DNA from: a virus
Length of the DNA: 25,350 nt
Reading direction: 5' to 3' (one strand)
Virus record (IMG/VR): IMGVR_UViG_3300030098_003940
Location: 1-25,350 of that record
Shown: positions 1,142 to 25,125 of the stretch, piece after piece
How the letters are laid out: the number at the start of each line of letters is the position of its first letter
Position numbering within the stretch: the stretch's first letter is position 1
Position numbers and translations under genes: made by a program
Notes under the pieces: generated by a model
What the model saw: the letters and a program-made list of their open reading frames with translations, nothing else
Told to the model about the DNA's origin: nothing
Database searches by the model: none

Positions 1142-1322
1142 GCCACTAGGAGAATGCGCAGGCTACACCGATGCTGACTTGTATGAGCGTGAGGTGTGGT
1201 ACATGTGGGAAGAGGAGAGGAAGCATCTCGCGTTCTTTACGGCTCGCTATGAGGAGTATGTGGAGCGCGCCAAAGCTGATGGGGAAGAACCTGTTGACTT
1301 TGTTACGTGGTCGAGGCGGTGA
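1128..1322 (+). CDS. Small hypothetical protein, 64 aa
   Basis: A near-perfect Shine-Dalgarno, AAGGAGGTGA at 1115-1124, precedes ATG 1128. The GTG at 1125 is in frame but too close to it. The gene overlaps the previous one by 14 bases. The product is strongly charged and aromatic (about a quarter acidic residues, several Tyr and Trp), probably a single helical domain. No family recognised. It is the last credible gene before the structured 840-base stretch, so its transcript would run straight into the candidate RNA. Confidence 0.6.
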   Translation: MKRSKPLGECAGYTDADLYEREVWYMWEEERKHLAFFTARYEEYVERAKADGEEPVDFVTWSRR

Positions 1323-1411
1323 TGATAGATGAGGTGGAAGGGGTGAAGGTGATTGGGCCTTGCCTCTTTGCCTCCGGATGTCTCGCGCTCATGTGAGGCA
1401 TCGCCAGTGTG

Positions 1412-1459
1412 GGCCATCGGTTGTGGACTCGGCTTGGTTTACTCCGCAACCCGATGGCC
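1412..1459 (+). repeat. Long imperfect inverted repeat at the 5' end of the structured region
   Basis: GGCCATCGG (1412-1420) pairs with CCGATGGCC (1451-1459). The stem continues as TTGTGG (1421-1426) with CCGCAA (1444-1449), leaving C1450 bulged, for 15 pairs including one G-T wobble. The loop is 17 bases. It is not followed by a T-tract, so it is not an intrinsic terminator. It may be the first helix of the candidate RNA. Confidence 0.75.
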
Positions 1460-1775
1460 AAACGCAGCGGTGACGAGTGAGTGAGAGCATCGTTAGGCGG
1501 GTTGGAGGGAAGGACGGGATACCATGTGAAAGAACCCACCCTACAGGGGTGGGTGGTCGGGTCATTGCCCCGCAGGGACAACAACGCTTCGCTCGTTGTC
1601 GATAAGCGTCGCGCTTTGGTTGAATGGAAACATGTTCTGGAAACCGCTTTAGCGGCCCGAGCCAGCGAGGGTGTATTTCCAGGTTGTGGTTGCATTCTAC
1701 CTAAGCTCCAACCAGTGAGTTTGGAGGCGAAGTCCGATTACACACACACACGGTTGGAACATCGTAACTTCGCGT

Positions 1776-1827
1776 CACGAGCTTGCTCGTGGAGATGACG
1801 TAGTCATCGTGTGCAGCTATGCTGCAC
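1776..1827 (+). repeat. Three perfect hairpins placed back to back
   Basis: CACGAG-CTTG-CTCGTG (1776-1791), GATGAC-GTA-GTCATC (1794-1808) and GTGCAGC-TAT-GCTGCAC (1811-1827) follow each other with only 2-base gaps. The stems are 6, 6 and 7 bp with loops of 4, 3 and 3 bases. The three stems differ in sequence, so this is not tandem duplication. Three perfect stems in 52 bases is hard to explain by chance. Confidence 0.8.
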
Positions 1828-1894
1828 GAGCGAACCACGTCCCGGCAACCAGCCTCAACGTCCCGGTAGCCATGTGCTGGGGTGAGTCAGAAAA

Positions 1895-2019
1895 GCGACA
1901 CCGAAGGTGAGCCTACTGCGCATCACGTAAGTGAGAGCGATACCGAATGGTGAGCTTGTGTCTCGTCCCGGTAGAAAAGTTTGAACCCCGCGTCGGGGTT
2001 CGCGATACCGAAGGTGAGC
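1895..2019 (+). repeat. Three copies of an 18-19 base mini-hairpin repeat
   Basis: Copies lie at 1895-1912 (GCGACACCGAAGGTGAGC), 1937-1955 (GCGATACCGAATGGTGAGC) and 2002-2019 (GCGATACCGAAGGTGAGC). Each can fold as GC-ga-YACC-loop-GGTG-a-GC with a GAA or GAAT loop. The first pair of the inner stem is C-G in copy 1 and T-G in copies 2 and 3. The octamer CGTCCCGG also occurs three times, at 1838, 1859 and 1964; the latter two lie 36 and 38 bases before copies 1 and 3, suggesting a larger duplicated unit. Confidence 0.75.
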
Positions 2020-2075
2020 CGTGGTGTGTTACGCTGTGTGGCGTGAGGTGGATGGTCGAACCTCGAACCTCATAT

Positions 2076-3059: not shown

Positions 3060-3563
3060 ATGGCAGACATGAGTAAACTTCTTCCGCAGGAACAAGAGGC
3101 TGTGGATATGGCAGGTCAGATGGACCAGGCGATGAATGAATCGCTGATGGCGTCATCACCTGCAGGTGACTTCAACAAGGCATCTCTGAATGGTCTGGTG
3201 GGAGCGTTGAATAAGGTGCTCCCGTTGTTTGACGTGAAGGACAAGTACCCTAAGTTTGAAGAGGGTATTGAGGATGGTCGGTTGCCTGGAGAGTTCATTC
3301 GTCAGCTAAGCATGGTAGCTGCAGCGGCTGAAGATTCGGGGCTCTTAGAAGAACCTATGGACCTCAATGAGCTTACGGATGACCAAGGCCTTCGTATGTT
3401 TGCTGCAAAGATGCAGAGCCTCTCGAAGAACATTGAGTTTAAGCAGTTCCTGAAAGAAGATGCTCCTGTGCAAGCTCCAGAAGAGGAGCCTGTCTTGGAA
3501 GAGCCAGTGGCTGCACCCATGCCGGAGATGGGCATGGATGAGCTTATGATGCAAAGACTCTAA
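3060..3563 (+). CDS. Acidic hypothetical protein next to the portal gene, 167 aa
   Basis: ATG 3060 is preceded by AGGGGTGAT at the end of the upstream gene. The protein is acidic and largely helical (residues 1-130), then has a Pro/Glu-rich linker (APEEEPVLEEPVAAPMPEMG, about residues 139-158) and a short end MDELMMQRL that could be a binding peptide. No catalytic motif or membrane segment is seen. Its TAA overlaps the stop codon of the minus-strand portal gene, so the two genes meet tail to tail with no room for a separate terminator. Acidic, linker-tailed proteins at this position in phages can be head-assembly factors, but I do not recognise this one. Confidence 0.65.
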   Translation: MADMSKLLPQEQEAVDMAGQMDQAMNESLMASSPAGDFNKASLNGLVGALNKVLPLFDVKDKYPKFEEGIEDGRLPGEFIRQLSMVAAAAEDSGLLEEPMDLNELTDDQGLRMFAAKMQSLSKNIEFKQFLKEDAPVQAPEEEPVLEEPVAAPMPEMGMDELMMQRL

Positions 3564-5164
3564 CCTTTGAGTGGTAGCAGCGGGGCTACGTTCTGAGGGG
3601 ACGGATCTACCAGTGATTCTACATAGTTAGCTGGCTGTTCGAACCCCTTCATTCCTCTGGGAACATCTTGAGCTTGGCCTCCCTGTAAGAAAGACTCGGG
3701 GAGGTTGAGCATGCGGACGATCTCCTGGAGGAGCACCTGGGGAGCAACGCCCAGTCCAAGCAGCGTAGGCACATTCTCTAAGAGTTGCTGTTTTGCCATT
3801 TGCTCTGACATGGGGGTTGTTGCCATGTCGCTGGCATAGGTCACAAAGTCCCCCATCAGGTCGCCTGCTTTCAGAAGCACAGCTTTATCGTTAATGAGCA
3901 CTGCTTCTGGAGCGTTCTGGTCAATGAACATGGCCATCATAGGCAGGAAGGTTTTAGCTAATCCCTCGATAGCGCCATCTCTTGCTCGGGCCATCCTGCC
4001 AAGCTCTGAGCTTGTGTATGCTGCCAGGGCTGCAATCTCTGTAGCTGTAGCTCTGGTAGACTCACCGCGAGTAAAGCTTGCGGTAACACCGCCTCGCTCC
4101 CGGTCATCCATAATCTGCTGTGCGTAGAGTTGAAGCTCGTGAGGCAGCGCAACATGAGGCACAGGGCGGATGATTGAATCCATGTCGTCTGTCTCAACTT
4201 CTACAAACAGGCCGTCGATACCAGAAGTGACCTTAGCCATGCTCTCTTCGTCGATAGCCCCCTTCTTTACGATGTACTGGCGAGAGGCCTTTCTGACTGC
4301 AGATGCTTGGTAGCTGCGAATGATATTCATCTCGTAGCACTGGTCATAGATTCTCTGCATGACTCCATACCCCATCAGAGGTTGGTCCGGGAGCCTGGAG
4401 AAGTAGAAGGGAATCAGCGGAGTGATGGGGCGGTCCTCAAAGTCCCTGAAGGGAATGGGAGAAACTTTCTCTACGAACTTTTCACCAGCCTTGTATTGTG
4501 GAGAGTAGAAGAGCAGTTGGTCGTTCACCAAGTCGTAGAATTCCAGGATTTGAACGTACTCAAACACTGACTTGTCCTCTAAGTCAGGCAGGTTGTGCTT
4601 GAAGTAGTCAATCTTTCCTTCGCCCTCCATCTTCTTGCCGAACTTGTCTTTGGCCTCTTCCGTTGTCATCGTGTACCAGTGGCCAATGTACCGCTGCAAG
4701 TCTTGGCTCTGAGCGTCTTCGTCTACCAAAACGTTCCATGGTTCGATAGCGATAGGGACCATTCTCCTGTACAGAACCTTATCTTCCACTGGGATGAGCT
4801 TCATGTAGGCGTGAGGGTAGATGAGCGCCAGCCTGGAGCACCTCTCGATGGTCTCTTGCGCTCTCATCAGGAAGTCGTTCACTACAGCTTCAGAGTATTC
4901 TACGTTCCCTTTCCCTTGAAGTCCGGGTTTAAGGACTACCGCTGGGTGCTTGCTGAACAGAGACGCGATGTAACTCTCGATGAATTCATGTCCCAAGGCT
5001 ACCTGAATGTTGATCTGGGCCTCGTCTTGTGCGCGCAACGAGAACTGGTTGTCCCAGAACTTGTTCTCATAGGCTGCTCGGTAGCGAGTCATCTCTTCCC
5101 TGAGCTTGTCCCAAGCATCCAAGTGATTGTCGAGCAGTTCCTGAACTTGTGTTACGCTGAACAT
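3560..5164 (-). CDS. Portal protein (head-tail connector), minus strand
   Basis: A 534-residue protein with the look of podovirus portal proteins, which form the dodecameric ring at the capsid vertex for DNA entry and exit. Supporting stretches are an N-terminal helical region with AQDEAQINIQVALGHEFIES, then YPHAYMKLIP, a wing-like part with PWNVLVDEDAQSQDLQRYIG, and QPLMGYGVMQRIYDQCYEMN followed by an Arg/Ala-rich helix and ESTRATATEIAAL (a SASE/ATE-like motif common in portals). The C-terminus is a Pro-rich tail. The start is ATG at 5164-5162 with CTGGAG upstream on the minus strand. Length is normal. The oddity is orientation: scaffold, capsid and all tail genes run on plus, so the portal needs its own promoter or an antisense transcription unit. 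Confidence 0.85.
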   Translation of the reverse strand: MFSVTQVQELLDNHLDAWDKLREEMTRYRAAYENKFWDNQFSLRAQDEAQINIQVALGHEFIESYIASLFSKHPAVVLKPGLQGKGNVEYSEAVVNDFLMRAQETIERCSRLALIYPHAYMKLIPVEDKVLYRRMVPIAIEPWNVLVDEDAQSQDLQRYIGHWYTMTTEEAKDKFGKKMEGEGKIDYFKHNLPDLEDKSVFEYVQILEFYDLVNDQLLFYSPQYKAGEKFVEKVSPIPFRDFEDRPITPLIPFYFSRLPDQPLMGYGVMQRIYDQCYEMNIIRSYQASAVRKASRQYIVKKGAIDEESMAKVTSGIDGLFVEVETDDMDSIIRPVPHVALPHELQLYAQQIMDDRERGGVTASFTRGESTRATATEIAALAAYTSSELGRMARARDGAIEGLAKTFLPMMAMFIDQNAPEAVLINDKAVLLKAGDLMGDFVTYASDMATTPMSEQMAKQQLLENVPTLLGLGVAPQVLLQEIVRMLNLPESFLQGGQAQDVPRGMKGFEQPANYVESLVDPSPQNVAPLLPLKG

Positions 5165-5236
5165 GGGTTCTCCAGTAATGTGGCCAGTGTTCTCTTATAT
5201 ATATATAGAAGAAGTTACTGGCCACTTGAGGTGTAA
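5165..5236. promoter_or_regulatory. Divergent portal/scaffold spacer with palindrome around (TA)6
   Basis: This 72-bp spacer separates two divergent genes. GTGGCCAGT (5180-5188) and ACTGGCCAC (5217-5225) are a perfect 9-bp inverted repeat flanking TATATATATATA (5196-5207). CCAGTAA (5172-5178) is also complementary to TTACTGG (5215-5221), so a second pairing is possible. The TA run could act as a -10-like element on both strands and the arms as an operator, or the repeat could form a hairpin in either 5' leader. No canonical -35 is seen. That both genes must be expressed from here or by read-through is inference. Confidence 0.5.
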
Positions 5237-11156: not shown

Positions 11157-11830
11157 GCTTCAAGTGGACTCCCTCCCAGCTTCAGACAGACAATGTCACG
11201 GATGTTGACGCATTCAATGAAAGGTATGGTCAATTAAAGAGTGAGTTGAATGGCTCGATGGGGCGCGACCAGCTTCCAGAACGAAGCATCACGACAGCTA
11301 TGCTCAAGTCTGGGTCTTTTTACCGATTCAAAAGAGAAAAGCTCCGGCTTCAAGACCCTTACAGGGCTGAACCTACTCCAGGCCTAAGCTTTCCTGGGTG
11401 CCAGTATTCTAAGTACTCAGGCGGGCTTGTTCGCTCGAACAGCTACACATTTGATTGCGTTGAAGGAATGCTTCATATCGAAGCAAGCTTGTGCTTTTAT
11501 CTGCAGCACAGCACGATGGCTGATCCAGAAATTTACTGGACTACAATTAAAGACATGCAGCCCTACGGTCAGTTCCAGCTTCTTGTGAACAGCGTTCAGG
11601 TTGTCTCTCCTGAGTTTAAAGTCTGGCAGCGTGGAGGTACTGTCTACATGGTCGGCGACATTCCGGTGTCTGACGGCGACCAGACAATCCAGTTCTTTTG
11701 GGGAGCAAGACCGCCGGGTGAAGTAGACTATTTAAAGACTGGCGCTTCAGGAAAGTGGACATCAAGAACAGATGAGCCAGTATTCTTCTTTGACGGTGGA
11801 ACCTTACTTCTTATCAACAGGTTCAGATAA
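11153..11830 (+). CDS. Virion appendage-like protein A, 225 aa
   Basis: ATG 11153 overlaps the nozzle stop (ATGA) and has AAGGAG upstream. The first 55 residues look like an attachment domain: MSFKWTPSQLQTDNVTDVDA, then FNERYGQLKSELNGS and LPERSITTAM. The rest is a predicted beta-sandwich rich in Tyr, Phe and Gly (VRSNSYTFDCVEGMLHIEAS, FFDGGTLLLINRF). The next two genes repeat this layout. I interpret it as a tail- or head-attached appendage or short fibre. No enzymatic motif is seen, and I do not recognise a named family. Confidence 0.6.
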   Translation: MSFKWTPSQLQTDNVTDVDAFNERYGQLKSELNGSMGRDQLPERSITTAMLKSGSFYRFKREKLRLQDPYRAEPTPGLSFPGCQYSKYSGGLVRSNSYTFDCVEGMLHIEASLCFYLQHSTMADPEIYWTTIKDMQPYGQFQLLVNSVQVVSPEFKVWQRGGTVYMVGDIPVSDGDQTIQFFWGARPPGEVDYLKTGASGKWTSRTDEPVFFFDGGTLLLINRFR

Positions 11831-23903: not shown

Positions 23904-23910
23904 CAATTAA

Positions 23911-24135
23911 CTTACTTTCGAAGTAAGAATGGATCTGTAAGCCCTGGGGAAACCTGGGGTTTTCAGTCTGGAAGCTGCGGGGGGATACCCTCACAGAGTC
24001 GGAGTTGGGTAGCAGGAGGTAACACAAAGAACGCGGTGTCGGACTAGTCCCCTGGCACTCGAACTGAAAGGTGAAGCACACAGACTTAACTGTTAGCCTT
24101 GCATCCTTCCCTGCTACCCAGCCCCTCTTCCGACT
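23911..24135 (+). ncRNA. Candidate structured RNA / leader upstream of the amidase gene
   Basis: The 249-base gap 23904-24152 holds no gene but several inverted repeats. CTTACTT-TCG-AAGTAAG (23911-23927) is a perfect 7-bp hairpin. CTG..GAAACC pairs with GGTTTT-CAG (23944-23966). A long-range stem joins AGTCGGA (23997-24003) to TCCGACT (24129-24135) and TGGGTAGCAGG (24006-24016) to CCTGCTACCCA (24110-24120), 18 pairs in all, enclosing a hairpin at 24035-24059. The stem ends 7 bases before the amidase Shine-Dalgarno (AAGGAG, 24142). It could be a translational control element or an independent small RNA; strand and function are inference. Confidence 0.6.
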
Positions 24136-24704: not shown

Positions 24705-25125
24705 GTTCTTATTAGCGCAGTGCACCTTAGAGCCTCCCGTAGGCTATGCAGGCATGGTGATTGAGGCGGCAGAAGAGTTCAACATTAACCCTCGGCTATT
24801 GAATACCGTGGTAGTACAAGAGACCCGCTGTAATCACGGTGCGATTGGAGCCCAAGGGGAAATAGGACTCGTGCAATTGCACCCTGTTGTATGGAGCCAC
24901 CCATATAACTGGAACTGGATTTCTACAGATCTTTCCTGGGATGGATTGGAAGATGCCAGGGACCCTTACCAGAACCTCAGAGCTGGGGCGTGGTTGATTC
25001 ATATCAACCTGATGCTATCTGGCGGTGACATGCACGGAGCGCTTACAAAATACAATGGCTCGTCTGCTTATGCTGATGAGGTCTTAGAGCGCTTTGCAAC
25101 GTACTGGGAAGACTGCGAGCTTTAG
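24694..25125 (+). CDS. Stand-alone lytic transglycosylase (SLT-type), 143 aa
   Basis: Lytic transglycosylases cleave the MurNAc-GlcNAc bond with formation of an anhydro sugar. Motifs: TVVVQETRCNHGAIGAQGEI followed by GLVQLHP, in which Glu43 is the likely catalytic acid and G-GEIGLVQL is the classical SLT signature (usually G-MGLMQ-P); then NLRAGAWLIHINLML and ALTKYNGSSAYADEVL, the later helices with the conserved YNG. The first 9 residues are hydrophobic but too short for a signal peptide. ATG 24694 is preceded by GGAGGAG inside the amidase gene. It may be a second lysis enzyme, or a virion enzyme that opens the wall on infection. Confidence 0.82.
   Translation: MLIEFLLAQCTLEPPVGYAGMVIEAAEEFNINPRLLNTVVVQETRCNHGAIGAQGEIGLVQLHPVVWSHPYNWNWISTDLSWDGLEDARDPYQNLRAGAWLIHINLMLSGGDMHGALTKYNGSSAYADEVLERFATYWEDCEL

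Follow-up and report, generated by a model that had tools for sequence, protein, structure and literature searches.

The 25,350-base virus contig analysed here, referred to below as the window, contains a gene-free stretch at positions 1323-2163 of the plus strand whose predicted structure exceeds chance and which, with moderate confidence, is taken to be an orphan large (~0.8 kb) structured non-coding RNA. This reading is based on the non-coding character of the stretch, on a folding excess over shuffled sequences, over the rest of the record and over the gaps of related viruses, and on a preference for the plus strand.

Genomic context of the element

The window contains podovirus-like structural genes, including those for a portal, a major head protein (phrog_9953), an internal virion protein and an amidase. 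The element begins after a small ORF that ends at 1322 and is followed, on the same strand, by a gene for a RusA Holliday-junction resolvase (2164-2613; PF05866, E 9.8e-23; phrog_140, E 6.6e-34). It is the sole gap of more than 250 nt in the window without a credible gene: 1323-2073 is left without a gene by a simple gene caller, while the two other caller gaps of more than 250 nt (11157-11829 and 24705-25121) are spanned by long ORFs in the ORF listing. All ORFs of 1323-2163 are non-coding by a codon-usage score trained on the long genes of the window; those at 1481-1798 (plus strand) and 1303-1695 (minus strand) have values of -0.07 and -0.11, whereas the 5th percentile of true coding sequence is +0.09. 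Six-frame translations of the stretch give no PHROG match in any frame, and a decayed gene was rejected on this ground. The absence of a convincing gene, as noted in an earlier sequence-only reading of this DNA, is thereby confirmed.

The start of rusA is uncertain, the candidates being 2164 and an ATG further upstream, at 2074, with 30 extra codons that score as coding-like, so that the right limit of the gene-free stretch lies somewhere in 2073-2163 and the helix that closes the predicted fold (1331-1345/2133-2146) may overlap the start of rusA. Immediately upstream of rusA, region 2079-2160 comprises a C/G-run palindrome followed by an AT-rich stretch with A-tracts, which is a possible promoter or unwinding element.

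No promoter or plus-strand terminator was recognised for the element, and with the flanking genes on the same strand the RNA would be transcribed together with them. The element immediately precedes rusA in the same orientation, with no plus-strand terminator seen in between, an arrangement that would also suit a cis-acting leader, i.e., a structured 5' untranslated region controlling translation, processing or decay of RusA and the following transcript. A length of 800 nt is, however, very long for a leader, and no riboswitch or leader family of Rfam matches the element, which makes such a role unlikely.

Predicted fold and strand preference

The best fold of the element spans 1331-2146 (816 nt), with both ends within the gap between the flanking genes, and shows that the boundaries of 1397-2075 proposed earlier were too narrow. 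It has a minimum free energy of -359 kcal/mol, with z-scores of about -6.6 on the plus strand and -4.6 on the minus strand (100 shuffles). As this interval was picked from the fold, its z-scores are somewhat optimistic, and those of the gene-defined interval 1323-2163, -5.8 and -4.0 (60 shuffles each), are the fairer figures; for 1397-2075 the values are -4.6 and -3.4 (60 shuffles each). In a comparison of 816-nt windows from the whole record and both strands (60 tests), 1331-2146 ranks first on the plus strand, at 50 kcal/mol below its own shuffles, and second on the minus strand, at 36 kcal/mol below, the best non-overlapping window being 26 kcal/mol below. The gene-free gaps of related viruses are mostly short and weakly structured; the z-scores of 12 such gaps are no stronger than -4.3, compared with -7.9 for the element in the same run (10 shuffles).

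The numerous short inverted repeats described earlier are also borne out. A repeat tool finds 15 inverted-repeat pairs in 1300-2200, part of them long-range, and the element contains six perfect hairpins (stem 6 bp or longer, loop 3-8 nt), against a mean of 0.84 and a maximum of 4 in 200 shuffles. This density of perfect hairpins is the highest anywhere in the window. With folding windows of 150 nt alone the region does not stand out; the excess appears at the scale of domains and of the whole element. Folding energy by itself is no proof of function.

A long-range helix closes the predicted layout, given here for the plus strand, around a 156-nt rod, three arms and a number of tight hairpins. 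In the closing helix, residues 1331-1345 pair with residues 2133-2146 (GAGG/CCUC and AGGGGUG/CACCCCU) with pair probabilities of 0.94-0.99. The rod (1358-1513) is a single long imperfect hairpin, with 59 bp in 1356-1515, including 10 G-U pairs; it has z-scores of -4.9 on the plus strand and -2.5 on the minus strand, and is matched by none of 500 plus-strand shuffles. It is followed by hairpin ACCCACCC-UACAG-GGGUGGGU (1534-1554) and by the inner junction helix, in which 1559-1575 pairs with 2034-2042 and 2074-2080, the 3' side (2034-2080) enclosing a hairpin at 2043-2073. The first arm (1613-1706) contains 36 bp and internal loops (z -3.9 on the plus strand, -2.6 on the minus strand). The second arm (1707-1793; z -3.5 and -1.4) has a 3' strand that can instead form a perfect hairpin at 1776-1791, and the third (1875-1973; z -3.5 and -0.9 for 1873-1975) is closed by a 12-bp helix. 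The perfect hairpins GAUGAC-GUA-GUCAUC (1794-1808), GUGCAGC-UAU-GCUGCAC (1811-1827) and GAACCCCG-CGU-CGGGGUUC (1983-2001), like that at 1534-1554, appear both in the hairpin count and in the best fold. A GNRA-closed stem pointed out earlier, CAC-GUAA-GUG, is indeed present at 1924-1933 of the plus strand, but it is just 3 bp long and does not form in the best fold.

The tandem repeats reported earlier are real and comprise two motifs with three copies each. Motif CGTCCCGGYA occurs at 1838, 1859 and 1964. The second motif, GCGAYACCGAA(T)GGTGAGC, starts at 1895, 1937 and 2002, where the repeat tool identifies repeat 1, GCGACACCGAAGGTGAGCC (1895-1913), repeat 2, GCGATACCGAATGGTGAGCT (1937-1956), and repeat 3, GCGATACCGAAGGTGAGCC (2002-2020). 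These three repeats are self-complementary, allowing either hairpins of their own or mutual pairing; in the best fold repeat 1 is paired with repeat 2 inside the third arm. The sole substitution in their stems changes a C-G to a U-G pair, such that pairing is kept, which lends the structure weak support. Pairing through the same ACC-GAA-GGU units could be intramolecular or intermolecular.

Every domain is more stable on the plus strand than on the minus strand and has more G-U pairs there, in a comparison for which the domain boundaries were taken from the plus-strand fold. A fairer test is provided by the whole element, for which E(+)-E(-) is -47.5, versus -31.2 (sd 7.2) in shuffles, a difference of ~2.3 sd. 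The plus strand is thus favoured beyond composition, which indicates RNA rather than DNA cruciforms, and an RNA role of the element is favoured over a DNA role. The origin and cruciform alternatives that had been raised with the sequence-only reading are weakened by this strand preference, yet both strands are structured. As a DNA element, the stretch would be a hairpin or cruciform region acting as an origin, a packaging site or a recombination hot spot, and possibly a substrate of RusA. The folding of the minus strand, the strong folding of either strand when only Watson-Crick pairs are allowed (z -4.7 and -5.4), the AT-rich tract that follows at 2100-2160 and the nearby portal gene, which is moved and inverted relative to related viruses, are all consistent with such a function. 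Neither the strand preference nor the G-U pairs in the arms are expected of cruciforms, however; the perfect hairpins extend over no more than 6-8 bp, the long arms are not perfectly paired, and the direct repeats are few and short, with no iteron array. On balance a DNA element is considered quite unlikely.

Related viruses and a second structured region

Searches with the capsid protein reveal 24 related viral loci, the nearest of which is 67% identical (L003, from record G002). In these relatives the portal gene precedes a zinc-ribbon gene, a place that is occupied in the window by RusA and the element. The element is absent from all relatives, as judged by blastn on a subset of the loci, nhmmer and single-sequence covariance models, and relatives found through capsid, RusA and neighbouring-gene searches do not carry it. 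No homologue is present in 20 related or RusA-sharing virus records, nor was one found by motif scans, and the phage, plasmid and E. coli genome collections contain no match; the genome collection holds neither a capsid relative nor an element motif. Single-sequence covariance models of three domains match only the window itself. Records nearly identical to the window may have been absent from what these searches covered. All nine loci retrieved by motif scans of the viral collection (L027-L029, L052-L054 and L059-L061) were rejected, their likeness to the element being confined to the short motif; the first six of them (L027-L029 and L052-L054) are coding-like on reading and about as numerous as expected by chance. 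In the literature no RNA was found described at the position of the element.

The large structured RNA of the sequence-only reading is sustained in part, being favoured by the lack of coding capacity, the extreme folding energy, the imperfect arms with G-U pairs and the strand preference. That no relative was found to carry the element, and that its locus is rearranged, would agree with non-functional DNA, whether an insertion in decay or a GC-rich spacer with hairpins formed by chance. Such an origin is very improbable: none of 60 shuffles reaches the folding energy and none of 200 the hairpin count, decay would not be expected to leave a 59-bp rod intact, and no protein remnant is present.

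Several other features were observed at these loci. The portal gene of the window (3560-5164, minus strand) runs against the other structural genes and follows the zinc-ribbon gene and that at 3060-3563, while in relatives it lies before these two in the same direction; this arrangement is either a real inversion or an assembly chimera. Between the portal and scaffold genes (5165-5236) the two halves of an inverted repeat, GTGGCCAGTG .. TACTGGCCAC, bracket a promoter-like TATATATATAG; in G002 the same promoter-like core (L050 2997-3044) is accompanied by another inverted repeat, GAGACACTGT/ACAGTGTCTC. In another related record, a 1.2-kb low-coding gap read by eye may contain a remnant of an HNH/NUMOD-type homing endonuclease (L012 2550-2857).

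A second candidate structured RNA, of ~225 nt, is located at 23904-24128 on the plus strand, in the gap that separates a small ORF from the amidase gene, with z-scores of -3.7 on the plus strand and -1.3 on the minus strand. Its homologue in G002 (L050:12254-12480, minus strand) is 82% identical and keeps 60 of 60 consensus pairs, with five double-compensatory changes, five one-sided changes and no broken pair, a comparison biased towards kept pairs, as the consensus itself was predicted from these two sequences. For the region in the window, neither Rfam at E<=10 nor the phage collection gives a match. The covariation pattern between two sequences makes a good but not final case for a previously undescribed RNA structure next to the lysis genes, one that is better supported than the element at 1323-2163, and suggests that this phage lineage harbours undescribed structured RNAs.

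Comparison with known large RNAs

On the reading of the element as a large RNA, the transcript would be kept as a stable folded particle with its ends joined by the closing helix. By analogy with GOLLD and ROOL it might act in trans, as a particle or scaffold used in infection, which we regard as rather unlikely. It is proposed tentatively that the element represents a new class of ornate phage RNA of ~0.8 kb that is related to neither GOLLD nor ROOL and forms a closed, possibly self-associating particle during infection. If true, a further unrelated class would suggest that phages invent large RNAs repeatedly, and would offer a new system for studying their role.

Only a handful of very large structured phage RNAs are known; GOLLD and ROOL form RNA-only cages of unknown function (PMC12286853). 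The Rfam covariance-model search proposed earlier, covering GOLLD, ROOL, OLE, HEARO and introns, matched no family. At gathering thresholds the whole window has no Rfam match, and at E<=10 region 1320-2170 has only two weak, unrelated matches far below their cut-offs. OLE, HEARO and group I and II introns, which come from bacteria or mobile elements, are also large and structured, but none of them matches region 1320-2170 at E<=10.

The resemblance to GOLLD and ROOL was suspected from the start to be one without matching sequence, and the searches agree. GOLLD is phage-encoded and multi-helical, with many members exceeding 800 nt, and often, though not obligatorily, lies near tRNA islands (PMC12286853). 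The element shares the large size, the multiple helices and the phage location, but is not matched by the GOLLD model (RF02032) at E<=10, a search for which no control genome scored above the cut-off, and the 25-kb window has no tRNA genes. With ROOL the element shares the large size, a phage or prophage location and the lack of an evident protein partner. The ROOL model (RF03087) does not match the element at E<=10, while it detects the ROOL of L. salivarius, used as positive control, at E 1.1e-29. This genuine ROOL has a z-score of only -1.3 at 40% GC, compared with -6.6 at 57% GC for the element, so that a strong z-score is no ROOL-like signature and the element is distinctly more hairpin-rich.
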